A DNA stretch of 64,000 nucleotides from Phycisphaeraceae bacterium (GTDB lineage Bacteria; Planctomycetota; Phycisphaerae; Phycisphaerales; Phycisphaeraceae): assembly GCA_028277745.1 (NCBI GenBank), contig JANQFR010000025.1, positions 1-64,000 of the forward strand. Direction: 5' to 3'. This document shows, piece after piece, positions 6,914 through 62,304 of this stretch (position 1 is the stretch's first letter; each line of letters opens with the position of its first letter). Position numbers and translations under genes: made by a program. The notes under the pieces are model-generated. The model saw nothing but the letters and a program-made list of their open reading frames with translations. It ran no database searches and was not told where the DNA came from.

Positions 6914-7141
6914 CGTGGGGCTCCGGTTCGGGCGGCGGGTTCGAGCCCCGCATTTTAGCGGCCCGACCGGGCCGGGGCCATCCCGGCCCCAAACGCCGCT
7001 CGATCGGCCGATGTTGAGCGGCGGGGCCCGCCCCGCGCTCCGCCCCGACCGCATATTTGGGAAACCCCCGCCCCGGTTTCCACGACACCGACAACCGCGA
7101 GGTTGGTATCTTCAGGCTGCACCGCGTGCGGAGGACCCGAC

Positions 7142-9221: not shown

Positions 9222-9766
9222 CGGCGCCCCGCGACAACCCGTTCAACATGCAGCGTCTCGAACAGCTGGCGTTCGAGCCGCAAGGCGTCACATGGAGCGG
9301 CTTGCTCGATCGTCTCGACGCGTTGAACCATCGCGCCGCCATCGTCGGCCCCCACGGCTCGGGCAAGACCACGCTCCTGCTTCAGCTGCGCGACACGCTC
9401 GAGCAACGCGGCCGCCCCACCGCCCTGCTGTTTCGCAACACAGACGGCGGCCCCGCCCTCCCCGACAGCTGGCGGCCAACCCTCGAAAGCCTCGACCCCG
9501 AGGCCGTGCTCCTCATCGATGGCTACGACCACCTGTCCTGGCCGGCCCGAACTCATCTGCGAAAACACCGCCGGTTGATCGTTACCACCCACCGCCGGGC
9601 GATGCTGCCCACCCTGATCCGCACCCGCACCTCGCCGCGGCTGCTGCACCAACTCGCCAACCGGCTGCAGACCGGAGCCATCGATCCACACCATGCCGCC
9701 GCGCTGCACGCCACGCACGGCGGAAACGTACGCGATGCGCTGCGCGCTCTGTACGACCGCTATTAG
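9218..9766 (+). CDS. small P-loop ATPase of the DUF3592/arrestin-like operon
   Basis: A 182-residue protein with Walker A IVGPHGSGKTTLLLQLRDTL (near residues 42-61) and Walker B EAVLLIDGYDHL (near 96-107). A sensor-like strand RRLIVTTHRR follows, as in STAND/AAA-type NTPases. It ends with a helical region containing GGNVRDALRALYDRY. GTG at 9218 overlaps the preceding stop (GTGA). Being only an ATPase core, it likely works on a partner, and the overlap points to the two upstream products. A family-A palindrome 22 bases after the stop serves as terminator. The precise family is not recognised. Confidence 0.78.
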   Translation: MTAPRDNPFNMQRLEQLAFEPQGVTWSGLLDRLDALNHRAAIVGPHGSGKTTLLLQLRDTLEQRGRPTALLFRNTDGGPALPDSWRPTLESLDPEAVLLIDGYDHLSWPARTHLRKHRRLIVTTHRRAMLPTLIRTRTSPRLLHQLANRLQTGAIDPHHAAALHATHGGNVRDALRALYDRY

Positions 9767-9788
9767 CCATCAAAAGCGCAAAGAACAG

Positions 9789-9818
9789 GAAGCCCGGGGA
9801 TTGCAATCCCCGGGCTTC
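9789..9818. terminator. palindrome family A, copy 1 (GAAGCCCGGGGATTGCAATC...)
   Basis: Perfect 15-base arms centred on ATTGCAAT, 22 bases after the ATPase stop and followed by TTAGC. The same sequence recurs at 18491, 26470, 62249 and 62615, with a variant at 43643. It acts plausibly as an intrinsic terminator although the T-run is short. Confidence 0.75.
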
Positions 9819-9889
9819 TTAGCTCAACAATACTTTTTTGCCTCTTTTCGCGGCCAATCTGTTTTTCCGATCTTGCTACACTTTCGGTC

Positions 9890-11008
9890 GTGAGAAACAC
9901 CCAACGCGATGCGCTGCTCACGTTGATGCTCACACCGGGGCTTGGTCATACGTTGATCCGCCGGTGCCTGGAGGCGTTCGGCTCGGCCGAGGCGACGCTG
10001 GGGGCCGGCGCCGCGGCGCTGGCGCGGATCGATCGCATCAGCCCGCGCAAAGCCGGCGAATGCGCCGCGGCGTTTGACCGTATCCAAAACGACGGCTCAC
10101 TGCAGCGCGAGCTGGACGCGATCTGCGCGGCCGACGCCAGGCTCATCACATGGGGAGAGGCGGATTACCCGCCCCTGCTCAAGCACATCCCCGACCCGCC
10201 CGTGCTGCTGTGGGTGCGGGGCGAGCTGCAGCCGGACGACGCGGTGGCGGCGGCGATCGTCGGGTCGCGCCGCTGCACGCACTACGGCCGGGAGCAGGCC
10301 GACCGGTTCGCGGCGGAGCTGGCGACCAACGGCGTCACGATCGTCAGCGGCGGCGCGTACGGCGTCGACGCCGCGGCCCATCGCGGCGCCCTGCGGATGC
10401 GCGGCCGCACGCTCGCCGTCATCGGCTCGGGGCTGGGACACCCCTACCCCCGTGAGCACGCCCCGCTGTTCGACCAAATCGCCGCGGGCATGGGCGCCGT
10501 CCTCAGCGAATACCCGATGCTCACCGCGCCGCAGGCGGAAAACTTCCCCCGCCGCAACCGCATCATCTCCGGCCTGTCGCTGGGCACGCTCGTGATCGAG
10601 GCCGCCGCCCGCAGCGGAGCGCTGATCACTGCACGCCAGTGCGTCGAGGAACACGGCCGCGAACTCATGGCCCTGCCCGGGCGGGTCGATGCGCCGGCGT
10701 CGGCGGGCTGCCACAAGATGATCCGCGAAGGCTGGGCCACGCTCGTCACGTCCGCCAGCGACGTGCTCGACCAACTCGGCGAGGCCGGCCAGTTGCTCCG
10801 CGCCGACGAGCCCGACGCCCCGCCGGCCGACCCCGGGCTCAACGACGTGCAGACCCGGATCGTCGACCTCCTCCACGACGAACGCACACTCGACCAGATC
10901 GTCGCCCACACCGGCCTCCCGGTCCACCAGGTGCAGTCCGAGCTGACGATGCTCGAGGTCCGCGGCTCGGTCGCCCGCCACGGCGGGCTCTTCGTCAAAC
11001 GGCGGTAA
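9890..11008 (+). CDS. dprA: DNA processing protein DprA
   Basis: A 372-residue DprA/Smf protein. The N-terminal ~70 residues form a SAM-like helical region. The Rossmann DNA-binding core has VGSRRCTHYGREQA (residues 124-137) and the family hallmark SGGAYGVDAAAHRGAL (153-168), followed by PRRNRIISGLS. The C-terminal ~60 residues form the winged-helix found in many DprAs (LDQIVAHTGLPVHQVQSELT). DprA loads RecA on incoming single-stranded DNA during natural transformation. The start is a GTG at 9890; no ATG precedes the conserved region. No other competence gene is in the window. Confidence 0.95.
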   Translation: MRNTQRDALLTLMLTPGLGHTLIRRCLEAFGSAEATLGAGAAALARIDRISPRKAGECAAAFDRIQNDGSLQRELDAICAADARLITWGEADYPPLLKHIPDPPVLLWVRGELQPDDAVAAAIVGSRRCTHYGREQADRFAAELATNGVTIVSGGAYGVDAAAHRGALRMRGRTLAVIGSGLGHPYPREHAPLFDQIAAGMGAVLSEYPMLTAPQAENFPRRNRIISGLSLGTLVIEAAARSGALITARQCVEEHGRELMALPGRVDAPASAGCHKMIREGWATLVTSASDVLDQLGEAGQLLRADEPDAPPADPGLNDVQTRIVDLLHDERTLDQIVAHTGLPVHQVQSELTMLEVRGSVARHGGLFVKRR

Positions 11009-11039
11009 CCGAGTCAGACGCACGCCCGGTTCCAGACAT

Positions 11040-11543
11040 TCAAAAAAAGAGCCGCGAACGGCCCGCTGCGCGGCGGGCGTCGGCGAGTTGACCACGGTGC
11101 GACATCTCGTGCATCGCGGTAAACAGAAACAACTGACCCTTGGTCTGGAAGTCCGGATCGTCGGTCAACTCCGGCCAGACCATGGCGGGGGCCTGGTCAA
11201 GGCCGGCCTCACCTGTTTCGTCCAACAGATCGAGCGCCTGCTGGTGGAGACGGTCACAGGCGGACAGGACCTCATCGTAGGTGGGATAGACGTCCGCCTC
11301 GGCCTTGGGCTCGCTGCCGCCCTCGAACCATTCTTTCCAATGCTCGACCGGGTTCGGCGTGCCGCTGATCATCATGAGCAAAGCGCCTTTGGAATAAGCG
11401 GCGTGCCCCATGACCCACATCGGGTGATTGCCGCCGCGAGGCGTCGGAGCCGTCATCGCCGCGTCACGCATATCCTCCGCGAGCCCGTGGGTCCACGTGT
11501 GACTGATCCGCAGTGCGGATCGGATGGTTTCGATCGTGGTCAT
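11040..11543 (-). CDS. DinB-family protein
   Basis: A 167-residue four-helix-bundle protein. His residues at the expected metal-binding positions are present (HAAYSKGAL in helix 2 and MHEMSHRGQLADARR near residues 142-156), the classic DinB/YfiT pattern, where three His bind a divalent metal. Members act as thiol transferases or have unknown roles. The ATG overlaps the stop of the upstream SRPBCC gene (ATGA), and together with the ArsR gene this forms a three-gene operon seen in many phyla. It is convergent with dprA, with only ~30 bases between the stops. Confidence 0.88.
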   Translation of the reverse strand: MTTIETIRSALRISHTWTHGLAEDMRDAAMTAPTPRGGNHPMWVMGHAAYSKGALLMMISGTPNPVEHWKEWFEGGSEPKAEADVYPTYDEVLSACDRLHQQALDLLDETGEAGLDQAPAMVWPELTDDPDFQTKGQLFLFTAMHEMSHRGQLADARRAAGRSRLFF

Positions 11544-12025
11544 GTCGTTTTTTCCAAGGCGCGGGAAAGGTGTTGCACCAGATGGTCGAAGGCTTCGCTC
11601 CAGCCGCCGCGGTGCGAATCGCGCGACGCGGGCGTGGGGAGGCCGGCCTGCTCAAACGTCATCTCGGTCTTGCCGTCACGCTCCTCGAAGATCACGGTCA
11701 CCCGCGTGGCGAGGCCCGGCGGCTCCAGGTCGTTCTGCTCCCAGGCGAACGTGAACACAAGCCGGCGGGGCTCGTCGATCTGTTCATAAACCCCGTGCGA
11801 GACGTACTCGCGCCCGTCGGGCGACCGCATCCCCGACCGCCACGCGCCGCCGGGCCTCAGGTCGCTTTCGACGAACACCATCTGGAAATCTTTGCAGCAG
11901 TGCCATTGCATCAGGTGATCCGTCTCGGTCCACGCCCGCCAGACCAATGCGCGTGGGGCGTCGAGGACCCGTTTGATCACCAAGACGTTTTCCGTGGATG
12001 TCGTGGGGTTTTGTGAGTCGTTCAT
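11540..12025 (-). CDS. SRPBCC / AHSA1-like ligand-binding protein
   Basis: A 161-residue START-like protein. The typical opening IKRVLDAPRALVWRAWTETD HLMQW starts near residue 17, and a GGAWRSGMRSPDGREYVSHG strand pair and the final helix (GWSEAFDHLVQHLSRALE) follow. AHSA1-domain proteins bind hydrophobic ligands or act as Hsp90-ATPase-activator homologues; in bacteria next to ArsR genes the role is largely unknown. It overlaps the DinB gene by four bases and follows the ArsR gene by 48 bases. The gene order ArsR-SRPBCC-DinB argues for co-regulation by the upstream repressor. Confidence 0.9.
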   Translation of the reverse strand: MNDSQNPTTSTENVLVIKRVLDAPRALVWRAWTETDHLMQWHCCKDFQMVFVESDLRPGGAWRSGMRSPDGREYVSHGVYEQIDEPRRLVFTFAWEQNDLEPPGLATRVTVIFEERDGKTEMTFEQAGLPTPASRDSHRGGWSEAFDHLVQHLSRALEKTT

Positions 12026-12073
12026 CTGCCGTTCTCCAGAGTCAGAGGGACCGCGTTCGAGTTGCGGCGGTTA

Positions 12074-12433
12074 TCAGGGGGTTTCACGGGTGGGGTCGGT
12101 TGATTGCTCCTGGGATTGGAGCTGCTTGAGGTAATCCTCCAGTTGATCGAAGCGTTGCTCCCAGAGCTGGCGGTAGCGTTCGACCCACTCGGACACCTCC
12201 CGCAGGGGCTGTGGCCGGAGGCGGCAGGGACGCCACTGGGCGCGTCGGCTCCGCTCGACCAGGCCGGCGCGTTCGAGCACCTTGAGGTGCTTGGTGATGC
12301 CCGGCGGGCTGAGGTCAAAGGGCTCGGCGAGCTGGGCGACGGTCATCTCGCCCGCGGTCAACCGGCCAAGCATCGCCCGGCGGGTGGGGTCGGCCAAAGC
12401 ATTGAGGGTGAGGCTGAGTGGGTCGGGGGCCAT
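12074..12433 (-). CDS. ArsR-family winged-helix transcriptional regulator
   Basis: A 119-residue protein with an ArsR-type winged helix: LNALADPTRRAMLGRLTAGE, then MTVAQLAEPFDLSPPGITKH LKVLERAGLVERSR. The C-terminal tail is helical and acidic. The metal-binding Cys motif (ELCVCDL) of metal-sensing ArsRs is absent, as expected for the subfamily paired with SRPBCC proteins. It is the first gene of the operon and the upstream region (12434-12480) is AT-rich with TTAATTAGCTAATTGG, a near-palindromic sequence that could hold both promoter and operator. Confidence 0.92.
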   Translation of the reverse strand: MAPDPLSLTLNALADPTRRAMLGRLTAGEMTVAQLAEPFDLSPPGITKHLKVLERAGLVERSRRAQWRPCRLRPQPLREVSEWVERYRQLWEQRFDQLEDYLKQLQSQEQSTDPTRETP

Positions 12434-12439
12434 TTATTT

Positions 12440-12475
12440 CGCCATTCAGTTAATTAGCTAATTGGTAAATTACAA
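12440..12475 (-). promoter_or_regulatory. AT-rich candidate promoter/operator of the ArsR operon
   Basis: Immediately upstream of the ArsR start codon the GC content drops sharply and the sequence TTAATTAGCTAATTGGTAAATTA contains a dyad (TTAATTAGCTAATT, near-symmetric around AGCT). ArsR proteins normally bind such dyads over their own promoter. The assignment rests on position and composition only. Confidence 0.4.
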
Positions 12476-12707
12476 TGCCGCGGGTGAGTTGTCAAGCCTC
12501 CCAGCCATTTTTCTCGCGGGTCGGCGTCGGATTCTCCCCGTGGGCTGCGCTGGCTCGCCGGCCTCTAACCTTCAAGACCGAGGCGCTGCCCCCATTCAAG
12601 AATCATTCTTCGCCCCGGCTTGCTTCCATGAGTTGATCGCCATGTCGCGGACGGCCCGCATGAGCTCACCAAGCCCGACTGCGATGGCACCCATCGTCAA
12701 CACAGCA

Positions 12708-13055
12708 TTATTGAAACCACCGCGGGACCGGGGCACCGCATTCGGGGCACGTCCCGGATATGCAACCTCTCAGGTCGTAGCGACACCGGGGGCACTTGCC
12801 CTTAACCAAGGCTTCCCGGCGACGGGCATAAGCGCGGATCCCGCGCCACAGGACGAAGCTCAACACGAGCAGCGCCGGAGCGGTGTTGAGTAAGAAGGCC
12901 GGCAGTCGATGGAGAGTGGGATCGTGCAGATAAGACCATGTAACGATCGCACCCCAAACGACCAACATGGAACACAACACGACCGTTGCAAAAACACGGT
13001 ACGGCCTTGGGTATGGCTGGAAAACCATTGGAGACCTGAATGAATATGACCGCAT
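12708..13055 (-). CDS. membrane protein with C-terminal zinc ribbon
   Basis: A 115-residue protein with two membrane segments (residues ~20-43 and ~53-70) and a C-terminal CPRCRYDLRGCISGTCPECG zinc ribbon (near 88-107). This 'CPxCxYDLRG...CPECG' tail is frequent in planctomycete membrane proteins, where its role is unknown. The start choice is uncertain, since M10 is another possible start. It is oriented as the DUF481 gene but separated from the next operon by ~270 bases with no evident feature. Confidence 0.7.
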   Translation of the reverse strand: MRSYSFRSPMVFQPYPRPYRVFATVVLCSMLVVWGAIVTWSYLHDPTLHRLPAFLLNTAPALLVLSFVLWRGIRAYARRREALVKGKCPRCRYDLRGCISGTCPECGAPVPRWFQ

Positions 13056-13101
13056 TCAAGCATACGCATCACAAGAAAAACGCAGGCGTCGAGAGCGCCG
13101 G

Positions 13102-13125
13102 AGCCCCGCATGCGCATGCGGGGCT
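13102..13125. repeat. palindrome family B, copy 2
   Basis: AGCCCCGCAT-GCGC-ATGCGGGGCT, 12 bases downstream of the DUF481 stop on the minus strand. It matches the copies at 1541 and 51824 and probably ends DUF481 transcription. Confidence 0.78.
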
Positions 13126-13137
13126 TAGTTAGGGCCG

Positions 13138-14154
13138 TCAGAAGTCGAGCATCAGCGCCCCGTAGTACGTCAGGTCGTTGCGTTCGCGGCCGCTGTCGAC
13201 GACGTTCTGGTACATGTGTTCGAGGCCGAACTTGAGGTTCAGGCCGTACTGCTTGTCGATGGCGATGATGTATTCGAGGGTGGAGATGGTGCGGAACTGG
13301 TCGGTCTCGAGCAGACCCTTATAGGCCTCGGACGAGGCGACGAGCTTCATGTTGTCGGTGATGTTCCACGAGCCCGACAGGCCGGCGACGGCGTCGGGGA
13401 CGATCTCGTTGACCGCCGAGCCGAACTCCTTGGTGGCGCCCAGGCCGGCCTTGCCGCGCAGCTCCCACGTGTCGTTCTGGACGAACTGGTAGCCCACGCC
13501 CCCGGCGCCGGCGAGGCGGTGCTCCCAGGACTGGAACTGGTCGTAGTCGTATCGTCCCTGGCTGAAGATGAACCATTTGCTGTCGGGGAAGAGCCAGTCT
13601 TTCTGGAGCTGGGCGTAGAAGTTGTTGGCGGTGTTCTGGCCGCGGTCGGTGGTGAGGTTGTAGCGGGTGGCGAAGTCCCACCGGTCGCGGTCGTCCTCGA
13701 AGAAGAGGTTGGCGCCGAGGTTGATGTTGAGCGTGCGGGTGTTGCCCTCGTTGCCGGAGAACCCGGCCTGGACGGTCTTGGTCCAGCCTTTGAGGAAGTT
13801 GGTTCCGAAGAGGCCGGGCTTGACCTCCTCGATCTCCTGCTCGGCCTCGGTGGCGGGGGCGGCGGTCGCGGGCTCGCCGGCGGCGACGGCGGTCGCGGCG
13901 GCGGAGGCGGCCCTGGCGACCGCCTCGGGGTCCACGTCCGCGGGGATGGCGGTGACCGAGCTGACGCTGGCCGTCGGCACGGTCACCGGGCCCAGCACCG
14001 GGTGCTGGAGGGTGAGGCTGTCGTCGGTGCGGCCGATGATTCGGCCGGTGAGCACGTCGCCGTTGGTCAGGACCACGGTGTCAACGGACGGATCGGCCGC
14101 GAGCAGGGACGGGGTCGAGGCGCAAAGAACGGTCAGAACAAGGATCCAACGCAC
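13138..14154 (-). CDS. DUF481 outer-membrane beta-barrel protein (YdiY-like)
   Basis: A 338-residue exported protein. A signal peptide (MRWILVLTVLCASTPSLLAA) is followed by an Sm-like strand region (TVVLTNGDVLTGRIIGRTDD). An Ala/Thr-rich linker follows and, from about residue 115, a DUF481 barrel with alternating aromatic strands (GWTKTVQAGFSGNEGNTRTL, RWDFATRYNL, KWFIFSQGRYDYDQFQSWEH). It ends in Phe (LMLDF), the usual C-terminal signal for outer-membrane insertion. DUF481 proteins are salt- or pH-inducible porin-like barrels of unclear function. The gene is monocistronic, transcribed from the 96-base gap after pyrG. Confidence 0.9.
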   Translation of the reverse strand: MRWILVLTVLCASTPSLLAADPSVDTVVLTNGDVLTGRIIGRTDDSLTLQHPVLGPVTVPTASVSSVTAIPADVDPEAVARAASAAATAVAAGEPATAAPATEAEQEIEEVKPGLFGTNFLKGWTKTVQAGFSGNEGNTRTLNINLGANLFFEDDRDRWDFATRYNLTTDRGQNTANNFYAQLQKDWLFPDSKWFIFSQGRYDYDQFQSWEHRLAGAGGVGYQFVQNDTWELRGKAGLGATKEFGSAVNEIVPDAVAGLSGSWNITDNMKLVASSEAYKGLLETDQFRTISTLEYIIAIDKQYGLNLKFGLEHMYQNVVDSGRERNDLTYYGALMLDF

Positions 14155-14250
14155 AACAGCACTCCAATCAGGGAATGTAAGGGGGTCATCCAGGATGCAG
14201 GTTTACCCTATATCCGCCACAACGACAAGAAATCATACAGGGCTTCAAGA

Positions 14251-16041
14251 TCAGGCGGTGACCGCGTCTTTGGCGTGGTGGAGCCACCGCATCGCGGGGA
14301 CGTCGGCGGCGAGGCCGGGCTGGGCGTGACGGATGGCGGCGGAGACCAGGCCCATGAACAGCGGAGAGGGCCGCAGCGGGCGGCTGGTCAGTTCGGGGTG
14401 GAACTGGCTCCCGATGAAGTACGGGTGGACCGACGTGGGCAGCTCGAGGACCTGCATGATGGGCTGTTTGGGGTGTCGGCCGGAGAAGATCAGGCCGTGG
14501 GCGGTGAGGGTGTCGATGTAGCTGGGGTCGACCTCGAAGCGGTGGCGGAAGCGTTGCCGGACGAGGGTTTGGTTGCCGTACAGAAACGCCGCGAGCGAGC
14601 CGGGCTCGAGGGCGACGTCCTGTCCGCCGAGGCGCATGTTCCCGCCGAGGCCCTCGATCTTTTTCTGCTCGGGCAGGATGCTGATGACCGGCTGATCGGT
14701 GTCCTTGTCAAACTCGGTGGAGGCGGCGTGTTCGAGGCCGCAGACGTGGCGGGCGAACTCGATGACCGCCATCTGGAACCCGAGGCAGATGCCCAGGTAC
14801 GGCGTGCCCCGCTCGCGGCAATAACGGACGGTGGCGATCTTGGACTCGGTGCCGCGGTGGCCGAACCCGCCGGGCACGATGATCGCGTCGAACCCCTTGA
14901 CCGCGTCGGGCACGTCCTCGGGTTCGAGCTTGGTCGTGTCGATCCAGTCGGTGTTGATCTGCGCGCCCAGGTGAGCCGCGCAGTGCTCCAGGGCCTTGTC
15001 GATCGAGGCGTAGGCGTCGCGCAGGGACGCGTATTTGCCGGTGATGCCGATCTTCACCTCGTGCGTGGGTTTGGCCTTGAGTTTCTTGACGTAGCCCTGC
15101 CACTGGGCGCGGGCGTCGTCTTCGTGCGACTGGTCGACCCGCGAGTGCAGGTTGAGCATGGTCAGGATCTCGCGGTCGAGCCCGGCCCGGCGCATCGCGT
15201 CGGGGATGGTGTAGATCGACTCGCGGTCGTGCATCGAAAACACCCGCCGCATCGGCACGTTGGAGAACATCGCGATCTTCTCGCACGCCGAGAGGGTCAC
15301 CGGGTTCTGGCAACGCACCGCGATCATGTGCGGCTGGATCCCCGCCTCCATCAGCTTCTTGAGGCCCAGCTGGGCGGCCTTGGACTTCTGCTCGCCCAGC
15401 GCCGGGGGCTCGATCACGTAGGTCAACGCCACGAACGCGACCGAGTTCTCGCCCTCCTCGAACGCCAGCTGGCGCAGCGCCTCGATGTAGAAGCCGTTCT
15501 CGTAGTCTCCGACGGTCCCGCCGACCTCGATGAACACGACGTCGGCGTTCTGCTTCATCGCCAGCTCGCGGAGTTGGCGCTTCACCTCGCCGGTGACGTG
15601 GGGGATCATCTGCACGTCCCGGCCGAGATACCCGCCGTGGCGCTCCTTATCGAGAACGCGTTGGAAGACCTGGCCGGAGGTGGTGTAGTTGTCGCGGGTG
15701 AGGTCCTGGTCGAGCAGGCGCTCGTAGGTGCCCAGGTCCATGTCGGTTTCGAGCCCGTCGTCGAGGACGAAGACCTCGCCGTGGCGGTAGGGGTTGAGGG
15801 TGCCCGAGTCGATGTTGAGATAGCCCTCCATCTTGATGGGGGCGATGGCGAGGGCTTTGTCTTTGAGGAGCTTGGCGAGGGAGGAGGAGAAGATGCCCTT
15901 ACCCAGGCCGGACATGACGGTGCCGAGGACGGCGACGTACTTGTGTTTGCCGCGTTGATAGCCGGGGGGCACCGTGTTGAAAAACTCGGAGTCCTGCGTC
16001 TTGTGGCCGGCTTCTTCGAGGAGGGTTTGCGTGGTGGGCAT
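14251..16041 (-). CDS. pyrG: CTP synthase, divergent N-terminally extended form
   Basis: A 596-residue protein against ~540 for typical PyrG. It makes CTP from UTP, ATP and glutamine. The synthetase domain has the P-loop-like SGLGKGIFSSSLAKLL (residues 44-59), the Mg-binding ETDMDLGTYE and EVGGTVGDYE. The glutamine-amidotransferase domain has the nucleophile Cys419 in LGICLGFQ and His548/Glu550 in SQFHPEL. Two features are odd: a ~33-residue N-terminal extension, and changes in signature positions (GTVMSGLGKG for GGVVSSLGKG; KMEGYLNIDSG for KxDPYxNVDPG). The fold and active sites still look complete. It is a single gene between a DUF481 gene and a long inverted-repeat terminator. Confidence 0.93.
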   Translation of the reverse strand: MPTTQTLLEEAGHKTQDSEFFNTVPPGYQRGKHKYVAVLGTVMSGLGKGIFSSSLAKLLKDKALAIAPIKMEGYLNIDSGTLNPYRHGEVFVLDDGLETDMDLGTYERLLDQDLTRDNYTTSGQVFQRVLDKERHGGYLGRDVQMIPHVTGEVKRQLRELAMKQNADVVFIEVGGTVGDYENGFYIEALRQLAFEEGENSVAFVALTYVIEPPALGEQKSKAAQLGLKKLMEAGIQPHMIAVRCQNPVTLSACEKIAMFSNVPMRRVFSMHDRESIYTIPDAMRRAGLDREILTMLNLHSRVDQSHEDDARAQWQGYVKKLKAKPTHEVKIGITGKYASLRDAYASIDKALEHCAAHLGAQINTDWIDTTKLEPEDVPDAVKGFDAIIVPGGFGHRGTESKIATVRYCRERGTPYLGICLGFQMAVIEFARHVCGLEHAASTEFDKDTDQPVISILPEQKKIEGLGGNMRLGGQDVALEPGSLAAFLYGNQTLVRQRFRHRFEVDPSYIDTLTAHGLIFSGRHPKQPIMQVLELPTSVHPYFIGSQFHPELTSRPLRPSPLFMGLVSAAIRHAQPGLAADVPAMRWLHHAKDAVTA

Positions 16042-16193: not shown

Positions 16194-17663
16194 TCACGCC
16201 GAAGCGCGGGCGACGGCCTGGCGGCGGTCGGCGAAGGGAATGGCGGCAGAGGCGATGCGGCGCTCGGCGGTGTGGCCGTTGAGGCGCATCTCGATCCGGC
16301 GGATGCCCCGGAGGATGTCGATCGCGGACTTGAACTCGTTCTTCTCCGGGTGCTTGGGCCGGAGGATCGCGGCGGTGAGGGCCGACAGCGCCCGGGCCTC
16401 ATCGCTGCTCTTGTCATACCGGACCAGGTGCTCGAACTCCGGATTGTGGTGCGGTTTATTGATCTGCACCGCGAGGTAGAACGAATCTACCGCCTTGTCC
16501 ACCCGGTGGTGAGCCGCGGTGATCTCTTCGTTCTGGACGTCGCCCCGGCGGATCATCCGGCCGAGCATCCGCTGGATCTGACTCGTGCGCATCATCTCGC
16601 CGAACAGGCTGGTGAGCATGGGCGACTGCTTGAGGTTCTCACCGATCCGCACCGCCGAGCCGAAATCGACGAAGCCCACGCCGTCCTCGGTGATCACAAA
16701 ATTGTCCAGGCGCAGGTCCAGGTGCATCACCTTGGCCCGGTCGTGCACGACCGCGAGCAGTTCGGCGGCCTGCTTGGCGAAGGTGAACTGCGTCATCGGC
16801 TCGCCGCCGGTGCGCAGCCAGTTCATGGTGAGTTTGTGGACGTATCCGCGCTCGTCCTTGCGGGCTTCGATCAGGCGGGGCACGCGTCGGTTGTACGGTT
16901 CGGGCAGGTCGCGCTGCAGGATTTTCAGGAACGCCGCCTCGCGGGTCAGGAACGTGGGGAAGACGACGTCGACGAATTTGCGCGCGCGGTGCTCGATATC
17001 CTCCTGCGAGGCGTCGGGGAACCGCTGGCGGAGCCGGTAGACCAGGTTGTCGTAGCCGGGGATCGACTTGGTCACCGCGTACCCCTCGGGCTCGTCCGGG
17101 GCGGGGGTGAGCTCGACCTGATACGTGAACCGGTCGGTCACGTCACCGGGCTGGATCAGTTGGGTCTTGCGAGCGGCGAAGTACTGGCCGTGCGGCGTGA
17201 AGCCGGGGATCCGCATCCCCCAGGTGTTGGCCCAGACCGCCGTGGGCGGGGTCTCGAGGAGGAACCCGTTCTGCCCGTCGAACGCCTCGGCCAGCCGGGC
17301 GACCTTGGCGTCGCCGGTGCCGACGTAGACAAACAGCCCGCCCCACCGCAGCCGGCCGAAGGCGTCTTCCGGCAGGCGGGGCTCGCCGGGGGTGGCGAAC
17401 AGCACGTCATACAGCCCCTCGTCCGGCAAGGCGGCCAGACGCCCGGTCGCCCGCCCGTCCATCGCCTTGCGGAACGCCTGGTCCATCGTCGCTTTCACCA
17501 GCCGCTCACGCTCCGCCGGCGACACGATCCGCCCGCGCGGAGGGGCCGGCGCCACGCCGCCTGCGGTCGACGGGCCGATTCTTGGGTCTTTCCGGAACAT
17601 CAGCTTTAACAGCCCTCGCAACCACAGCACCGGTCGAGGTCTGTATCGGCCGTCAATGATCAT
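16194..17663 (-). CDS. kinase-fold protein of an unnamed family (paralogue 1)
   Basis: A 489-residue protein. The C-terminal half carries protein-kinase-like motifs: a beta-3-like TREAAFLKI with Lys247, the catalytic loop VMHLDLRLDN (His314, Asp316, Asn321; HxDxxxxN) and VDFGSAV (Asp333), as in RIO/aminoglycoside/ABC1-like kinases. The N-terminal half (residues ~75-200) is an alpha/beta region with RLRWGGLFVYVGT that I cannot name. A paralogue lies at 44722-46011 with the same architecture. The start was set at the ATG at 17663; an ATG at 17681 is also possible. No glycine-rich loop is evident. Substrate unknown; planctomycete-type small-molecule or lipid phosphorylation is possible but speculative. 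Confidence 0.75.
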   Translation of the reverse strand: MIIDGRYRPRPVLWLRGLLKLMFRKDPRIGPSTAGGVAPAPPRGRIVSPAERERLVKATMDQAFRKAMDGRATGRLAALPDEGLYDVLFATPGEPRLPEDAFGRLRWGGLFVYVGTGDAKVARLAEAFDGQNGFLLETPPTAVWANTWGMRIPGFTPHGQYFAARKTQLIQPGDVTDRFTYQVELTPAPDEPEGYAVTKSIPGYDNLVYRLRQRFPDASQEDIEHRARKFVDVVFPTFLTREAAFLKILQRDLPEPYNRRVPRLIEARKDERGYVHKLTMNWLRTGGEPMTQFTFAKQAAELLAVVHDRAKVMHLDLRLDNFVITEDGVGFVDFGSAVRIGENLKQSPMLTSLFGEMMRTSQIQRMLGRMIRRGDVQNEEITAAHHRVDKAVDSFYLAVQINKPHHNPEFEHLVRYDKSSDEARALSALTAAILRPKHPEKNEFKSAIDILRGIRRIEMRLNGHTAERRIASAAIPFADRRQAVARASA

Positions 17664-17825
17664 CGTTGAACCACTAATCATTCCGTTGGGTGCACACTCA
17701 CAGATACGCGCCGGGCTAATCCGCACAACCGCTCAACACCCCCGAAACCGCCCCGTCAAAGACACCCCCTATCCCTCTCGTCTCAATCCGCCCCCGATCG
17801 CCATTTTTTCGGACGCGGGCCGCGC

Positions 17826-18490: not shown

Positions 18491-18520
18491 GAAGCCCAAG
18501 GATTGCAATCCCTAAGCTTC
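18491..18520 (-). terminator. palindrome family A, copy 2 (imperfect)
   Basis: GAAGCCCAAGGATTGCAATC followed by CCTAAGCTTC. It has the conserved ATTGCAAT core with one or two arm mismatches, and starts four bases after the stop codon of the WD40 kinase gene on the minus strand. Confidence 0.7.
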
Positions 18521-24837: not shown

Positions 24838-25053
24838 CTAACCTCCATCCGCATCACACGCGTTTTTCACGCACCTTTCTGACGCCAATCCCACGAAGCT
24901 CGGTTAAATTCTCTGTGCGGGCCGCGCGTTTTCCTATATCTTGTCGGACACACAAGGAGACGGGCCATCGGGGTTTACCGTCTGATCACGAAATGGATCG
25001 GTTGGGCGTGGCGTCCACGCCTCCGGTTGAACCATCAAGACAAGGGGGTCGTT

Positions 25054-25377
25054 ATGGCCAGTGAAGCATCCGAAGCGTTGGTCGCCAAGCCGTTGCCGCA
25101 GCTGCTGGAAGGCCTGGGCATGGCGGTGGCGAACGCGAATAAGGCGTTGATCGCCAACCAGGGCGACGAGTCGCGGATGGTCATCAACTCGGCCGAGATC
25201 GAGTTGGCGATCGCGGTGAACCTCGCTAAGGGCTCGGAGTTCCAGGCCAGCGCGGGCGGGGGGATCTACGGCTTCAGCGTCAACGCGTCCTACGCGCGCA
25301 CCTACAACTTCAGCGAGGAAGCCTCGTCGCGGATCAAACTCCAGGTGGCGGTCACCCCGCCCCAGCCCACCGAGTAA
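25054..25377 (+). CDS. first of three related small proteins, unknown family
   Basis: A 107-residue protein: an N-terminal amphipathic helix (LPQLLEGLGMAVANANKALI, residues ~14-33), a loop, a strand VINSAEIELAIAVNLAKG, a Gly/Ala/Ser-rich segment (SAGGGIYGFSVNASYARTY) and a closing strand SRIKLQVAVTP. The next two genes encode proteins of the same plan. ATG 25054 is preceded by AAGGGGG seven bases upstream. No signal peptide or membrane helix. It recalls the DUF2589 or trypco2-like small beta-sandwich families, but I am not sure of either. Confidence 0.72.
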   Translation: MASEASEALVAKPLPQLLEGLGMAVANANKALIANQGDESRMVINSAEIELAIAVNLAKGSEFQASAGGGIYGFSVNASYARTYNFSEEASSRIKLQVAVTPPQPTE

Positions 25378-25418
25378 CGTTGCCGACAGGTCCGCGGTGA
25401 GTCCGCGCGGGGTACGCC

Positions 25419-26162
25419 ATGGGAAAGAAGATCCGTCGGAAACAAGTGACGCGCAGGCGCGTGCGGCAGGTCGACACCGCCGAGCGGCCGGTCACGCTCG
25501 ACGAGGTGCTCGTGGCGTTTCAGAAGACCCTCGCCCGGGCCACGCGCAGCGCCCGGGAGGTCAGCCGGTCCGACGCCGCGTTCGCCACCGGCGAGAAGAC
25601 GCTCTACCTGGTCGACGGCCTCGACCTGGAGCTGAACGCCGGGTTCCGCCCCGCCACGACCGACGACACGCAGGCGGATTACGTCGAGGTCGACTTCAAC
25701 GCCCCGCCCGAGGACCGCTCCACGGTCCGGTTCCGCGTCGAGGCCAAGCCGCTGGAGCCGGTGGCGGAGACGACGCTGACCCTGTCGGATCGCGACCCGC
25801 TGAACCAGGAGCCGGGCCTGCTGTTGCTGCGGGCCATGCTCATCGGGCCGACCGGGCGCGGCGAGCAGGCGGCCATCGCGCCGTTGGGACGCAAGACCAT
25901 CCAGGTCCACGTCATCGCCGACGGGCAGGCCGCCGACCCGGTGGAGCTGACCACCGTCGGGTCCGGCGACAACGCCGGGCTGGCGGACTTCGTGATCGAC
26001 CCCGCCCTGTCGCAGCTCGTCGCCGGCAACGACGCGTTCGAGCTGGGCATCGACACCTCCGCCGCCGAGTCGCTGAGCATTTTCGCGTCCAGCGTCGACC
26101 CGCCCGCGAGCTCGACCGCCCTCACCCTGCCCGTGATCCTTGAAGCTGTCGAAGAGGAGTAG
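25419..26162 (+). CDS. second of three related proteins, longer, unknown family
   Basis: A 247-residue protein. A basic start (MGKKIRRKQVTRRRVRQ) is followed by a helix (LDEVLVAFQKTLARATRSAR) and the strand pattern TLYLVDGLDLELNAGF, then VRFRVEAKPLEP, matching the other two family members. From residue ~125 a second beta-rich domain follows (KTIQVHVIADGQAADPVELT, then FELGIDTSAAESLSIFASSV). It starts 41 bases after the first gene and ends two bases before the third. Cytosolic by appearance. The function is not known; the repeated architecture implies that the three proteins assemble together. Confidence 0.72.
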   Translation: MGKKIRRKQVTRRRVRQVDTAERPVTLDEVLVAFQKTLARATRSAREVSRSDAAFATGEKTLYLVDGLDLELNAGFRPATTDDTQADYVEVDFNAPPEDRSTVRFRVEAKPLEPVAETTLTLSDRDPLNQEPGLLLLRAMLIGPTGRGEQAAIAPLGRKTIQVHVIADGQAADPVELTTVGSGDNAGLADFVIDPALSQLVAGNDAFELGIDTSAAESLSIFASSVDPPASSTALTLPVILEAVEEE

Positions 26163-26164
26163 CC

Positions 26165-26461
26165 GTGGCCGTCACCGAAAACGAGATGCGCGTCGATCAG
26201 CTGCTCACCCGGATGACCGAGGCCTGCGCCAAATCCGCGGTCCAGCTTCAGCAACAGATGACGACCACCGCCAACGCCCTGCCCCACCACTACACGATCC
26301 CCAAGATGAGCATCGAGCTGAAGCTGTCGATGTCCTACTCCCAAGGCGTGGTCAAGGGCTTCTTCACCAAGCGCAGCAGCGAAACCGAAGCAAGCTCGCT
26401 GAGCACCATCTCGCTCGACATCGTCGCGGTGCCCAAGCAGCCCGCCGTTGACGCAACGTGA
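26165..26461 (+). CDS. third of three related small proteins, unknown family
   Basis: A 98-residue protein with an N-terminal helix (VDQLLTRMTEACAKSAVQLQ), the segment ALPHHYTIPKMSIELKLSMS, a variable middle and the closing strand STISLDIVAVPKQP. The 'P..xIP.MxIELKL' stretch is the part most like DUF2589-type proteins. Starts with GTG or the following frame at 26165, two bases after the preceding stop, so it is translationally coupled. A family-A palindrome eight bases after the stop ends the operon. Confidence 0.7.
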   Translation: MAVTENEMRVDQLLTRMTEACAKSAVQLQQQMTTTANALPHHYTIPKMSIELKLSMSYSQGVVKGFFTKRSSETEASSLSTISLDIVAVPKQPAVDAT

Positions 26462-26469
26462 CCGAAGCC

Positions 26470-26499
26470 GAAGCCCAGGGATTGCAATCCCTGGGCTTC
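26470..26499. terminator. palindrome family A, copy 3 (bidirectional position)
   Basis: GAAGCCCAGGGATTGCAATC followed by CCTGGGCTTC, perfect 15-base arms. It lies between convergent stop codons (26461 on plus, 26509 on minus), so it can terminate both. Confidence 0.78.
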
Positions 26500-26508
26500 C
26501 CCAAACAG

Positions 26509-27801
26509 TTAATCCACATCCGCCGACGGGAACAGCTCCGTGGTCTGCAACGAAGCCGCCTCCTCACGCAGCCGAAGGTAAGGCTCACGGTTATCCGCCA
26601 GATCAACCGGCCGGCCGGTCCGGGCGCCCCACCACGTCTCGATCGCATCGAGGTATTCAAACCCGTGCTCCAGGCTCGGCTCGACCACGGTGCCCTCGGC
26701 CCAATCGTTCCACGTCACGATCTGGATCAGCGGCGCCTCGACCGTCTGGGCCTGCGCCATGGTCTGTTCGAGGAACGCCAGGCCGTTGCGCTCCAGCTTC
26801 CGCGGCCCGCCGCCCCAGCCCCACACGCCGGTGTCGTCAAAGCCGGGCGACACAAACGGCATGAAGAAATCAAGCCGCTGCTGGGCGCCCAACTCACCCG
26901 CGATCCCGCGGAAGTGCGCGAAGTCCTGAACCCAGACCGGATCGGGCTTGACCCACATGAACGCGGCGTCGAGCGGAGGGTGCAGCTCGGGGCGGTCGAG
27001 GTTCTGCCGGCAGAGATAAGGCGCCCGCGGCAGCGCGTCGAGGATCGCCCGCCAGTCGTCCGCGGTCAGCGTGCGCGGGCCCAGTTCATCCTCGCCCCAA
27101 TAGTTGAACTGAAACACCGCCGGCCGATCGCCGTGCCGCAGGTAAGCCGGGTGCGAGCCGTACTCGGAGAGCAGGTAGCCCAGGTCCTGCGTCGCGGACC
27201 GCACGATGTCGTCCCGCGACGCGGGCGATCGGTACGGCGGCCAGTTGATCTTCTCCTCGTAGCAGACCGCGATCTTCACGCCCGCGCGCTCGGCCTCGTC
27301 GAGCAACGCCGGCATCAGGCGGTCCGAGTCGTCGGCGCCCGGGCCGTACCAGATCACCACCATCACGCTGATCCCGGCGTTGCGCGCGGTCTCCAGGTGA
27401 TACCGGATCACACGCGGGTCGCGGCTGTTGTACGGCCCGATCAACGGGTAAAACACCGACGAAATGTCCCGCCGGCCGAGCGTGGTCTGCGTCTCCGGGT
27501 CGCGCCGCGGGCCCGGGCCGTCCCACTTCCAGTGACGCCAGCTCCGCCGGCCCGGCTCGCCATCGGGAAACACCTCGAACCACGGCATGTAATGCGCCGC
27601 GAGATACGGCGGCTCGCCGCCGAGGTTCCAGGGATGCGAAGCGCTCGCATCCGCCTCCACGGAAACGCGGTCATCGGGACGCGGGGCGTCGGCTTCCATC
27701 GGGTCGTTCTCCGCCCGCGGCCCTTCGGGGCCCGCGGCCCGGCACGCCGGGGGGACGGCCAACAGCATCACGCAGAGAAGGATGCGGTTCAAGCGCGTCA
27801 T
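26509..27801 (-). CDS. secreted GH99-like / WbsX-type hydrolase-fold protein
   Basis: A 430-residue exported protein. The signal peptide is [20 protein letters not shown] followed by RAA. The TIM-barrel features of the GH71/GH99-like group are visible: [52 protein letters not shown], and the hallmark [16 protein letters not shown] near the C-terminus. GH99 enzymes cleave alpha-mannosidic bonds endo-wise; related planctomycete proteins are uncharacterised. ATG 27801 overlaps the pseudopilin stop (ATGA). Linked sulfatase, LacI and PEP-CTERM genes suggest action on a (sulfated) polysaccharide. The substrate is inference. Confidence 0.8.
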
Positions 27802-28547
27802 GGGCCGAGCCACTTCCAGCGGTCGTTGATGTTGTCGCCGTAAAACGTGTCCGCCTGGAACGCGTCGACCACATCGAAACCCAGGAACTCGACATGACCG
27901 TCGGAGAAGCCGTAATTGCCGCCCTGGCCCTGGTGCAGATTCGCGGCGGTAAAGAACAAAGATTCCATCTCCGGCACTGTCACGTACGCTCGATTCGTCG
28001 GATCAGCCTGAATACCGGGGTAACCGTAGTTTTCGCCAATGACAAAAACATGGACGGGGATGTCTTCGATCCGCGCCACAAAATCATCCGGATGTGGCGT
28101 ATTCAGATTCGTATATTCAGGCCATGGGAAACGATAACCGTCGGTGCGAAGAGAGCCCTCGTTAAACCTCATATCATTGACGCCATAACTACGCGGCGTG
28201 AATTCATCGAACGGAGTTACGGTGCTGCGCTGGATGTCGTCTTCGGGGCAGGTATACACGTCGAGGCTGCCGACGTAACCCAGCTCGGCGAGGATGCCCG
28301 ACCAGTCGTTGAACCCGTACCGGGAAGGCGGTCCGCTGGTCTTGGGGACCAGCTCGCCGTTGTCATCCACGGTGTACGCGACGTGGGCCAGTATGATCTG
28401 CCGCACGTTCGAGCCGCACTGGATCTGGCGGGCCGAGGCGCGGGCCGCGCCGAGCGCGGGCAGCAGCACGCTGATCAGAAGCGCGATGATCGAAATGACC
28501 ACCAGCAATTCGATTAACGTAAAACCTTGGCGATTCCGGGCAGGCAT
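27798..28547 (-). CDS. type II-secretion-like pseudopilin (prepilin-type N-terminus, H-x9-DG)
   Basis: A 249-residue protein. The prepilin peptidase site and hydrophobic helix are [20 protein letters not shown] (residues ~6-25). The C-terminal region has the planctomycete H-x9-DG motif ([20 protein letters not shown]). Such proteins are very numerous in planctomycetes and are thought to build secretion or surface pseudopili, possibly with substrate-binding heads. GGAG lies six bases before the ATG. It overlaps the GH99-like gene by four bases, so both products are made together. Confidence 0.92.
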
Positions 28548-35228: not shown

Positions 35229-37802
35229 CTAAAGCCGGGGGTCGACCGGCTCACTTTCCAGGGCCAGCACCGCAAACACGCACTCGTGAACCCGGCGCAG
35301 CGGCTCTCGACGAACGAACCGCTCCAGCGATTCAACGCCGAGGGCGAACTCACGCAGGGCGAGTGAACGCTTGCGGCCGAGGCCCCGGCTCCGCAGCCGC
35401 TCCAGATGCTCCGGACGGGCGTACTGCGGTCCATAGATGATCCGCAGGTATTCGCGCCCCCGGCACTTGACCGCCGGCTGGATCAACCCACGGCCGCCGC
35501 GGGCCACGAATTCGAGAGGCTTCACGACCATCCCCTCGCCGCCCTGCCCGGTGTAAGCCTCCCACCAGCGCACGCCCTCGGCCATGCTCCGCTCATCGGT
35601 GAGGTCAACCGTGAGGCAATCGGTGGCGATGATCGTTGCGTCGCAACCGCCCGCGAGGCGATGGCACTGTTGCATGTGCCAAGCGTGGTCCTGGCGGGTA
35701 TGCGCCTGCTTTTCGCTGGCGAGGAGATGGAACGGCGCCAGCCGCAGGTCATCAATCGAACCGACCGGCCAGCAGTACCGTTGATAGGCGGAGATGTAAT
35801 GGTCCACGTCGGCCGCCCGGCCCGTGTAGTCCTGAAGCAGGCCCGCCGCCTCGGGCGTCCGTTCGGCGGCCTTCTGCAACACCGCGGCCGCCTCGGCCAG
35901 GGCGTTTTTCCCCGCCGACCCCACGGCCGCATATTGCGTACGGAGCAGCTCCTGGGCCTTGGCCGACCATGGCATCAGCTCACAGTCCAGGCACAGCCAG
36001 TCCGTCTCCAGCTCGTCCCAGAGCCCGGCGTCCGTCGCCGCGGTCTGCAGCCGCTCCAGCAGGCGCTGTTCCCGTTCGCGGTCGTCGAAGAACCTCCGGC
36101 CGGTGCGGGTGTAGATGACGCCGACGCCGTCCTCGTCCACGCCGAAACGGGTGCGCGGGACGTCTGGATCGCGGCAGACGATAGCCACCGCGCGCGAGCC
36201 CATGTGTTTCTGCTGACAGACGACCCGGGCGACGCCCTGGTTGCGGTAATACGCGAAGGCCTCGCTCGGATGCTCCAGCAGCCCGTCCAACCGGCTGGTT
36301 TCGCAGGGCGACATGGTGGGCGGCAGATAGATGAGCCACTTGGGATTGGCGGCGAACCGGCTCATCACCTCGAGGGCGGCGGCCGCGTGGTGCTCCCGGA
36401 TGACGATCGACCGCTGGAGGCGGGTCTCGATGACCCGCTTGCCAAACACGTCCTCAAGGTCGAGCACGTCATCCAGCCGCTGCTGCGTGCTGAGCCGTCC
36501 ATCCTGCTCACGCTCTTGCAGGAACGGGCGCGCCGGCTCGGCGTAGACGTCGCTGGCTTGAACCGAGACCAGCTCACGCTCGGGGTAGCGCAGGGCGGTC
36601 AGCTTGCCGCCGAACACGCAGCCGGTGTCGATGTTGATGGTGTGGTTGACCCACTCCGCTTCGGGCACGGGCGTGTGCCCGTACACCACCGCGGCCCGGC
36701 CCCGGTAGGCGGCGGCCCAGTCGCAGCGGATCGGCAGCCCGAACTCGTCGGTCTCGCCGGTCGTCTCTCCGTAGAGGCAGAACTCGCGGACCTTCCCCGA
36801 CCCGCGGCCCTGCATCGACTCCTTCAGGCCCGCGTGGGCGACGACCAGGTTGCCGTCATCAAAGACATAGTGGCTCACCAGGCCGTCGATGAAATCGCGG
36901 ACCTGTTCGCGGAACGCGTCCGTCTCCGGCTCGAGCTGCTCCAGCGTCGCGTCCAGGCCGTGGGTGATCTGAACGTTGCGGCCGTTGAGCTTCCGCAGCA
37001 GCTTCACGTCGTGGTTGCCCGGCACGCACAGGCCCACGCCGTCCGCCGCCATGCTCATCGCCAGGCGCAGCACCCGGACGACGCCCGGTCCGCGATCGAC
37101 CAGGTCACCCACGAACACCGCCCGGCGGCCGGCGGGCGGGGTGACCGTGATCCCCAGCCCGTCCTCACGCTGATCATCCTCATTGAGCCGATAGCCGAGT
37201 TGCTTGAGAAGCGCGGCGCATTCGTCGTAGCAGCCGTGCACGTCGCCGATGATGTCGAACGGCCCGTGTTCGTCCTTGCGGTTGTTCCATAACGGCGCCC
37301 GCTCCACGACCGCGGCGTCCACGTCCTCCACGGACTTGAAGGTGTAGACGTACCGGAAGCCTTCACGCTTGAGCCCGCGCAGGCCCTGCTTCATCGCCTT
37401 GCGTTGGCCGCGGACGACGTGCGGCCCGAAGTCGCGGTCCGGCCGGGTCTGGTTGCGGTCGTGGCACACCTGCTCGGGGAGATCGAACACGAGGGCGACC
37501 GGCAGGACGTGGTGTTCGCGCGCGAGCAGGACCAGGCGCTTGCGGTCTTCCGGCCGGACATTCGTGGCGTCGATCGCCGTGAGCCGCCCAAGCGTCAGGC
37601 GCTTGCCCACGATCTCATACAACAGGTCGAACGCGGGGGCGGACGCGGCCTGATCGTTCTCATCGTCCGCGACCAGGCCGCGGCAGAAGTCCGACGACAC
37701 CACCTCGAACCGCCCGAAGTGTTTCCGGCCGAACGACGACTTGCCGGAGCCGGAGGCGCCGATGAACACCACCAATGAAAGCTCGGGGATCGTGACGGTC
37801 AT
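35229..37802 (-). CDS. pnkp: polynucleotide kinase-phosphatase-ligase Pnkp (RNA repair)
   Basis: An 857-residue three-domain RNA-repair enzyme. Kinase: P-loop GASGSGKS (15-22). Phosphatase: calcineurin-like, with GDVHG (186-190), GDLVDRGP (232-239), GNHD (262-265) and HAGL near 323. Ligase: nucleotidyl-transferase module with candidate Lys532 in CQQKHMGSRA. The protein heals 5' and 3' ends at RNA breaks and, with Hen1, seals them after 2'-O-methylation so the same toxin cannot cut again. It overlaps hen1 by four bases, as in known operons. The full length and all catalytic motifs are present, so it should be functional. Confidence 0.94.
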   Translation of the reverse strand: MTVTIPELSLVVFIGASGSGKSSFGRKHFGRFEVVSSDFCRGLVADDENDQAASAPAFDLLYEIVGKRLTLGRLTAIDATNVRPEDRKRLVLLAREHHVLPVALVFDLPEQVCHDRNQTRPDRDFGPHVVRGQRKAMKQGLRGLKREGFRYVYTFKSVEDVDAAVVERAPLWNNRKDEHGPFDIIGDVHGCYDECAALLKQLGYRLNEDDQREDGLGITVTPPAGRRAVFVGDLVDRGPGVVRVLRLAMSMAADGVGLCVPGNHDVKLLRKLNGRNVQITHGLDATLEQLEPETDAFREQVRDFIDGLVSHYVFDDGNLVVAHAGLKESMQGRGSGKVREFCLYGETTGETDEFGLPIRCDWAAAYRGRAAVVYGHTPVPEAEWVNHTINIDTGCVFGGKLTALRYPERELVSVQASDVYAEPARPFLQEREQDGRLSTQQRLDDVLDLEDVFGKRVIETRLQRSIVIREHHAAAALEVMSRFAANPKWLIYLPPTMSPCETSRLDGLLEHPSEAFAYYRNQGVARVVCQQKHMGSRAVAIVCRDPDVPRTRFGVDEDGVGVIYTRTGRRFFDDREREQRLLERLQTAATDAGLWDELETDWLCLDCELMPWSAKAQELLRTQYAAVGSAGKNALAEAAAVLQKAAERTPEAAGLLQDYTGRAADVDHYISAYQRYCWPVGSIDDLRLAPFHLLASEKQAHTRQDHAWHMQQCHRLAGGCDATIIATDCLTVDLTDERSMAEGVRWWEAYTGQGGEGMVVKPLEFVARGGRGLIQPAVKCRGREYLRIIYGPQYARPEHLERLRSRGLGRKRSLALREFALGVESLERFVRREPLRRVHECVFAVLALESEPVDPRL

Positions 37803-39238
37803 GGGGCTTCTCGCACGCCGGGGCGGTCCGCGTCAGGCCGGACCTCGAACACCGCCATCTGCGTGGGGCCGCCCACCTCGGGGTCTTCCGGCCCCACGGT
37901 CAGGAAGCGCACGCCGTAGCCGAACCGCTCACACACTTGGCCGGCCCACGCCTTGAACTGCTCGCGGGTCCACTCGAAGCGGTGGTCCCGGTGACGGTAT
38001 CGCCCGGCGGGCAGGGTCTCGAAGCGGACGTTGTATTCCACGTTGGGCGTGGTCAGCACCACGGCGCCGGGGCGGGCGAACTCGAACACGACGCGTTCCA
38101 GGGCCGCCAGGCGCGGCGGGTCGAGGTGCTCGATCACCTCGACCACGGCCGCGGCGTCGTAGCCCTGGATGCGGCGGTCCCGGTACATGAGCGAGCCGTG
38201 CATCAGCGTGATGCGCTCGCGCTGGGCGGCCGGGAGCCGGTCGAGCCGCAACCGGTCTTCCGCGGCGTCGAGCGACCGCAGCGACACGTCCAGGCCGACG
38301 ATAGCCTCGAACTGCTTTTCCTGCATCAGCCGACGCAACAACGCTCCCTGCGCGCAGCCCAGGTCAAGCACACGCCTGGCGCCGGAGGCTTTCAACGCCG
38401 CGATGACGGCCGCATGGCGTTGCTCGTGGAGGCTGATGCGCTCTTCGACCGTCTCTTCTTCCTTGTCATGCGCTTCGGCCTCGGCGTCCGGGTCGGACTC
38501 CTCATCAACCAGCCGCGACAGGGCTTCACGCGTGAGCCTGCTGGTGTAACGGAGATACCGATTCGTGATGAGCTGCTTCTCCGGGTGGCCCTTAAGCCAA
38601 CGCTCGCCCTTGCTGAGCAGCTTCTCCAGCTCGTCGCGGCCGACCCAGTAGTGTTTGTCGTTGTCGAGCACCGGGAGCAGCACATAAAGATGGCTCAGCG
38701 CATCCCGCAGCGTAACTTCGCCGCTGAGTTTCAAGTCGAAGTACGGGCTTTCGCCCCAGTCGGGACGGGTGTCGTCGAGCCCGTGCCGGGCCGCCTCGAT
38801 GCGGTAGCCCAGCGGCTCAAACAAACGCCGCAGCAGGTCCTCACCGCCGCGCCGGGCGGGGACGCAGGCGAGCCGGACCTCAAGCCGCAGAGGCCGGTCG
38901 ACGAGGCCCGGCTTGTCTCGGCACCGCCCGCCGAGGGCCGAGTTGAAGACACGGGCCAGCGCAACGCTCATGAACGATGAGGCCACGTAGGGGCGGTCAT
39001 TGACATACTGATCGAGCGAGAACCCCTCACCCTTGGGGCCGCGCCGATTCCTGACCAGCCCGATGGGGTCGACGTCGAGCAGGAGGGCGGCCGTGAATCG
39101 CGTGGAGCCGGCCTCGGGATAGAAGACGTGAGCCGCCCCGAAGGACAGATTGAAGGTCTGCACCTTGTCGGGGTGTTTGTGGAGGAGGTATCCGAGATCG
39201 GACGCCTCGGGCGTCGTGTTGGTGATCGTCAACAGCAT
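37799..39238 (-). CDS. hen1: Hen1 3'-terminal RNA 2'-O-methyltransferase (bacterial type)
   Basis: A 479-residue bacterial Hen1. The N-terminal half (residues ~1-245) is the domain that contacts Pnkp. The C-terminal methyltransferase domain has SAM motif LDLGCAQG (291-298) and metal-site residues in EVIEHLD (Glu367, Glu370, His371) plus His419 in RHRDHRFEW. It methylates the terminal ribose at the damaged 3' end before ligation, so the repaired site resists the toxin. The operon order is hen1-pnkp with a four-base overlap. The start at 39238 follows the conserved MLLTITNTTPEASDLGYLLH opening seen in this family. Confidence 0.94.
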   Translation of the reverse strand: MLLTITNTTPEASDLGYLLHKHPDKVQTFNLSFGAAHVFYPEAGSTRFTAALLLDVDPIGLVRNRRGPKGEGFSLDQYVNDRPYVASSFMSVALARVFNSALGGRCRDKPGLVDRPLRLEVRLACVPARRGGEDLLRRLFEPLGYRIEAARHGLDDTRPDWGESPYFDLKLSGEVTLRDALSHLYVLLPVLDNDKHYWVGRDELEKLLSKGERWLKGHPEKQLITNRYLRYTSRLTREALSRLVDEESDPDAEAEAHDKEEETVEERISLHEQRHAAVIAALKASGARRVLDLGCAQGALLRRLMQEKQFEAIVGLDVSLRSLDAAEDRLRLDRLPAAQRERITLMHGSLMYRDRRIQGYDAAAVVEVIEHLDPPRLAALERVVFEFARPGAVVLTTPNVEYNVRFETLPAGRYRHRDHRFEWTREQFKAWAGQVCERFGYGVRFLTVGPEDPEVGGPTQMAVFEVRPDADRPGVREAP

Positions 39239-46011: not shown

Positions 46012-46167
46012 CAAGACTCTACTGTAACGATACGCCTGCCCAGCCCCAAAGGTCGAGTCAGGCGGGGGGGACGGGGTCGTGAAGCGAGTAAAGAGTCGGT
46101 TATCCGGACCTTCGGCCGCCTGCGGCGTCCTCAGGACGGGCTTCGTGGCGCCAGAGGGGCTCTTGGA

Positions 46168-62238: not shown

Positions 62239-62248
62239 CCCTCTCTCG

Positions 62249-62276: not shown

Positions 62277-62304
62277 TTTCCCCGCGCGGTAAAATAGCTC
62301 CATC

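Follow-up and report, generated by a model that had tools for sequence, protein, structure and literature searches.

The window, by which we mean the whole 64,000-nucleotide stretch of Phycisphaeraceae DNA analyzed here, contains three small genes in a row on the forward strand: P1 (25054-25377, 107 amino acids), P2 (25419-26162, 247 amino acids), and P3 (26165-26461, 98 amino acids, with a GTG start codon). The three open reading frames (ORFs) lie at the positions and have the lengths assigned to them in an earlier sequence-only reading of this DNA (25054-26461), with 41 bases between P1 and P2 and 2 bases between P2 and P3, and they form a compact operon of 1.4 kb. The GC content at their third codon positions is 0.88-0.95, as compared with a window gene average of 0.87 +/- 0.07. 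This similarity to the other genes of the window indicates that P1, P2, and P3 are probably real ORFs and that their composition is not recently foreign. The P1 start codon is preceded by a Shine-Dalgarno-like sequence (AAGGGGG), which favours the short form of this protein. An open stretch in the P1 frame (24900-25053) precedes this ATG and reads ...GVYRLITKWIGWAWRPRLRLNHQDKGVV, and in-frame stretches containing Arg or Trp are likewise found ahead of the P1 ATG in the two proteobacterial loci described below (L032 and L044); a leader or an alternative start within 24900-25053 is possible.

Upstream of P1 lies a histidine phosphatase gene on the same strand that ends at 24768, and downstream of P3 a GH99-type gene (26509-27813) is oriented facing the triplet. 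A perfect 30-bp palindrome (GAAGCCC-GGGATTGCAATCCC-GGGCTTC; 26470-26499, no strand assigned) follows P3, as had been described, but it is not specific to the triplet: the window holds five copies with 0-3 mismatches (9789-9818, 18491-18520, 26470-26499, 62248-62277, and 62615-62644), against 0 expected. Being an intergenic repeat that is dispersed in this genome, the palindrome was rejected as a shared terminator of the three genes and probably lies outside the system. Elsewhere in the window, two adjacent genes on the reverse strand (35229-39238) look like the Pnkp-Hen1 RNA repair pair, and in the ORF list the proteins encoded at 16194-17726 and 44722-46014 (reverse strand) have similar stretches (F-RLRWGG-LVYV), making them possible paralogues.

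The P1 protein consists of a helix, the strand AEIELAIAV, a variable Gly-rich middle, an NASYART motif, and the closing strand KLQVAVTPP. P3 has a similar but shorter arrangement of a helix, the YTIPKMSIELKLSM strand, a short middle, and the closing strand DIVAVP. P2 has a basic N-terminus and a helix, followed by P1-like strands at residues ~60-112 and by a further ~135 residues predicted to be all-beta, which by inference would be Ig-like. All the strand motifs by which the three products had been likened to one another are present, except that the closing strand of P2 lies in the middle of the protein, ~135 residues before its end, and not at the end itself. None of the three proteins contains a segment with the hydrophobicity required of a signal peptide or a membrane helix, in agreement with the earlier reading. 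In the AlphaFold2 model of P1, built from 13 sequences and of low confidence (pLDDT 54), residues 3-11 and 14-36 are helical, residues 41-56 form a strand, the middle is disordered, and residues 87-101 form the closing strand. The P2 model, built from 3 sequences and of very low confidence (pLDDT 40), has a helix at residues 27-48, strands at residues 68-80, 86-92, and 100-107, and an all-beta remainder; its helix and first strands resemble the beginning of the P1 model. Structure prediction supports the scheme of secondary structure but is too uncertain for a fold to be named. A Foldseek search with the P1 model, which is too weak to trust, gave nothing at E<=0.001. Searches of Pfam, NCBIfam, PHROGs, and PADLOC with P1, P2, and P3 returned no meaningful match, no PADLOC model of a known anti-phage system was matched, and PDB sequence profiles likewise gave no meaningful match. 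A phage-tail assignment (PF10934, sheath initiator) was also considered for the triplet, and this search came back empty.

Sequence identity among the three proteins is negligible, and one alternative to a family of paralogues is that they are three unrelated small proteins, alike only in a generic helix-plus-strand composition and with nothing but their synteny being real. We compared their profiles and judged each profile-profile score against 100 column shuffles. P1 (residues 14-105) and P3 (residues 10-93) aligned in register over nearly their full length with a score of 27.6, which none of the 100 shuffles reached (maximum 16.7). Moreover, the P3 profile also picks up P1-type proteins of other gene arrays (E=9e-4), and the P1 profile picks up a P3-type gene of the array shared by L047 and a Sphaerotilus plasmid (paired profile E=5e-6). 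From these profile comparisons, P3 is a homologue of P1. The first 100 residues of P2 also aligned in register with P1, with a score of 21.0 that exceeded all 100 shuffles by a small margin (maximum 17.5). The comparison of P2 with P3 was no better than chance (22 of the 100 shuffles were as good), a result in favour of unrelated proteins. On profile evidence P2 is probably homologous to P1 and P3, and given the P1-P3 result we regard the absence of any common origin as very improbable. The proposal that the three are diverged copies of one family is thus well supported for P1 and P3 and has weak support for P2.

A collection-wide scan detected one close homologue of P1, in a Burkholderiaceae metagenome-assembled genome (L032, 48% identity, E=3e-26). 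The next two genes of this locus, on the same strand as its P1, are homologues of P2 and P3 that follow one another as in the window, with identities to the window proteins of 33% and 35%, respectively. Among 400 relatives of this genome, a profile search revealed a second full triplet (L044, in genome G494). The P2 orthologues of the two loci are 32-34% identical to the window P2, which is the least typical member of the triplet, and the block VTL-EVLV-FQ--LARATR is invariant in all three. The P1-P2 and P2-P3 gaps are 13 and -4 bases in L032, -1 and -4 in L044, and 41 and 2 in the window. The three-gene order is therefore retained in two proteobacterial genomes, and the absence of a conserved order, which would have refuted the triplet, was not observed. 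However, among the sampled genomes of the family, order, and phylum of the window, only the window genome yielded the triplet. P1, P2, and P3 were all undetected in 60 relatives of the window's family and order, and among 392 sampled genomes of the phylum full-length P2 was found in the window genome only, with three further weak and partial P2 matches (E 0.005-0.01). The same sample contained two distant P1 relatives that we judged to be real (L004/L025 and L007/L026); most of the other translated weak matches to P1 were unrelated ORFs and were discarded.

The first of these relatives (L025, genome G224) comes from another family of the same phylum. After its P1 homologue (blastp E=2e-5) comes a longer protein, C, in which a P3 domain is present (IPK...DIVA-P; blastp E=3e-4); this protein is itself one of the rows of the P3 profile that it matches. 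A 138-aa protein that by eye has a similar layout precedes the P1 homologue, and a 444-aa protein of unassigned type comes after the P3-domain protein. The genes that flank the copies are unrelated in each case. Sporadic occurrence in unrelated phyla with differing flanks is consistent with a self-contained module that is transferred horizontally, and the triplet looks like such a mobile module. Among viral contigs and phages no relatives were detected, and on plasmids the only relative was one Sphaerotilus array; phage and plasmid origins were both rejected. Altogether, the claim of an undescribed system is borne out in that the three genes are a real, conserved, and undescribed module.

P1 also matches a large family that is found in the Burkholderiales (profile match E=1.9e-17; profile-profile score 109.5). 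With a single HMM, tandem arrays of paralogues were detected in L045, L046, L047, and L059. The L045 array (6529-14524, reverse strand) comprises about nine genes with P1-type domains. Five are P1-type by HMM, including one for a 713-aa protein that carries an OmpA domain and another whose product has a PASTA domain at the C-terminus; in addition, there are one weak P3-like gene and one PASTA-containing neighbour. By eye, the proteins of this array have no obvious signal peptide, so that peptidoglycan-binding domains occur in apparently cytosolic proteins. L046 has three P1-type genes, and both L047 and the Sphaerotilus sulfidivorans plasmid (NZ_CP035710.1) combine two P1-type genes with one P3-type gene and one coiled-coil gene, those of the plasmid all being annotated as hypothetical. 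The arrays in L045, L046, L047, and the plasmid resemble the triplet in that P1 aligns over its full length and in that several paralogues stand in a row. They differ from it in usually having more than three genes, longer middles, and OmpA, PASTA, or coiled-coil parts, and no P2 orthologue was recognised in them.

The triplet had been guessed to be DUF2589-like. With the HMM of this family (PF11655), none of the three proteins reached the curated cut-off or gave a match even at E<=10. At the profile level the resemblance stands: P1's wider family aligned with DUF2589 over its full length with a score of 33.3 (shuffle maximum 17.2, reached by 0 of 100 shuffles), and the P1 subgroup scored 27.4 (0 of 100). 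P3 by itself was not significant (9 of 100 shuffles as good). A profile-profile match that does not reach the Pfam cut-off makes the triplet a distant relative, and not a member, of DUF2589. The two share an N-terminal helix, a Pro-rich approach to a strand of alternating E/D residues, a variable middle, and a closing strand, and DUF2589 genes also occur in small arrays with other uncharacterised genes. However, the DUF2589 proteins that we fetched carry a C-terminal P-x-G-[LM] segment, whereas P1 and P3 are shorter and end no more than ~10 residues past the closing strand with no such segment. One DUF2589 array (L066, 2771-11124) adjoins genes for a GH19 chitinase-like protein and for a protein of 1756 aa that matches eCIS_core, Fic, and C2H2 zinc-finger models.

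The neighbours and fused domains of these relatives suggest two functional readings. In the first, the subunits would polymerise into a structural assembly connected with the cell wall, and domains fused to them or present in partner proteins would attach it to peptidoglycan. This is consistent with L045, where family members carry OmpA and PASTA domains or have them in neighbouring proteins, and also with the GH108/PG_binding_3 gene next to the L044 triplet and the GH19 gene next to the DUF2589 array of L066. However, P1, P2, and P3 have no signal peptide, the window triplet has no OmpA, PASTA, GH108/PG_binding_3, or GH19 domain, and the neighbours of the L032 and window copies include no gene with an evident cell-wall role. 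We consider such a wall-connected assembly quite unlikely.

The second reading starts from peptidases. Trypco domains take their name from appearing together with trypsin-type peptidases in what were predicted to be conflict systems (PMC7159879) and were termed adaptors in a later paper (PMC10907252). In this light, the triplet could be a non-enzymatic, Trypco2-type defence adaptor. It would sense invasion, or assemble when this occurs, and switch on a trypsin-like peptidase as the executor. The L044 triplet lies directly downstream of a gene with GH108, PG_binding_3, TPR-S, and Trypsin_2 domains, and the L007/L026 relative of P1 lies directly upstream of a Sel1-Trypsin_2 ORF, the start of which it overlaps. 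This relative also matches Trypco2 (PF19631) with E=0.0013 and 19.4 bits, below the cut-off of 24.2, and the sporadic, transfer-like distribution would suit a conflict system as well. In contrast, P1, P2, and P3 do not match Trypco2 or a PADLOC model; the window genome has no Trypco2 match and only sub-threshold TPR-S matches, none of them clear; and neither in the window nor in L032 could a trypsin gene be identified next to the triplet. For most of the family arrays seen, no neighbour was recognised as a peptidase, and no MoxR, vWA, or VMAP gene was noticed nearby on inspection of the ORFs. The earlier suggestion of a trypco2-like family is hence supported indirectly, through the weak match of L007/L026 beside its trypsin gene, and not by the triplet itself, which is like Trypco2 in consisting of small non-enzymatic proteins but differs from it in lacking both the Trypco2 match and an identified peptidase alongside in the window. 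Because the window and L032 have no such neighbour and the window genome has neither Trypco2 nor a clear TPR-S, coupling to a peptidase is a hypothesis, and we rate a defence adaptor of this kind as rather unlikely.

We tentatively prefer, with a little less than even confidence, a reading in which P1-P2-P3 is a self-contained, horizontally moving operon for co-assembling cytosolic paralogues of one small alpha/beta domain with a distant relation to DUF2589, serving as an adaptor or scaffold for partners encoded outside it. The three products would remain in the cytosol and assemble together, as sets of diverged paralogues that stay linked usually code for different subunits of a single hetero-oligomer. 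Packing of the long N-terminal helices against one another, together with pairing of the two long strands from one subunit to the next, would produce a hetero-oligomer with a defined composition. The helix and the paired strands would be the assembly part, and the extra beta domain of P2 a variable outer part that may serve in binding or recognition on the scaffold, as the PASTA, OmpA, and coiled-coil parts may in the relatives. Such an assembly would most likely recruit partners encoded elsewhere, the best candidates being trypsin-like peptidases because these are adjacent at two relatives (L044 and L026). The P1-P2-P3 order in L032 and L044 and the adjacency of the P1 and P3 homologues in L025 support this reading, as do the P1-P3 and DUF2589 profile alignments, the tandem arrays with their fused and coiled-coil parts, the Trypsin_2 neighbours in L044 and L026, and the absence of a signal peptide; the low confidence of the P1 and P2 models, the empty Foldseek search, the marginal relation of P2 to P1, the non-significant P2-P3 comparison, and the lack of an identified trypsin gene beside the triplet in the window and in L032 count against it. 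A multi-subunit complex of the three products, as proposed earlier, is plausible. The recurrence of this gene order in unrelated bacteria, together with the lack of a named family, suggests that the three genes probably encode a multi-part protein assembly that has yet to be described. A broader possibility, speculative and in our estimate unlikely, is that the triplet and the DUF2589-like arrays make up one undescribed superfamily of cytosolic hetero-oligomeric machines with interchangeable recognition parts, which would couple to trypsin-like peptidases or cell-wall enzymes and represent a kind of bacterial conflict system that is new.

No function is known for DUF2589, a named family that a single paper among 5.39 million open ones mentions. 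The arrays presented above suggest that DUF2589 sits in a larger superfamily whose members are often sets of diverged paralogues, and its function thereby becomes testable. The triplet is a small unit of 1.4 kb with no obvious partners and is amenable to expression and structure solution, and the peptidase and cell-wall neighbours of its relatives provide concrete hypotheses on function.
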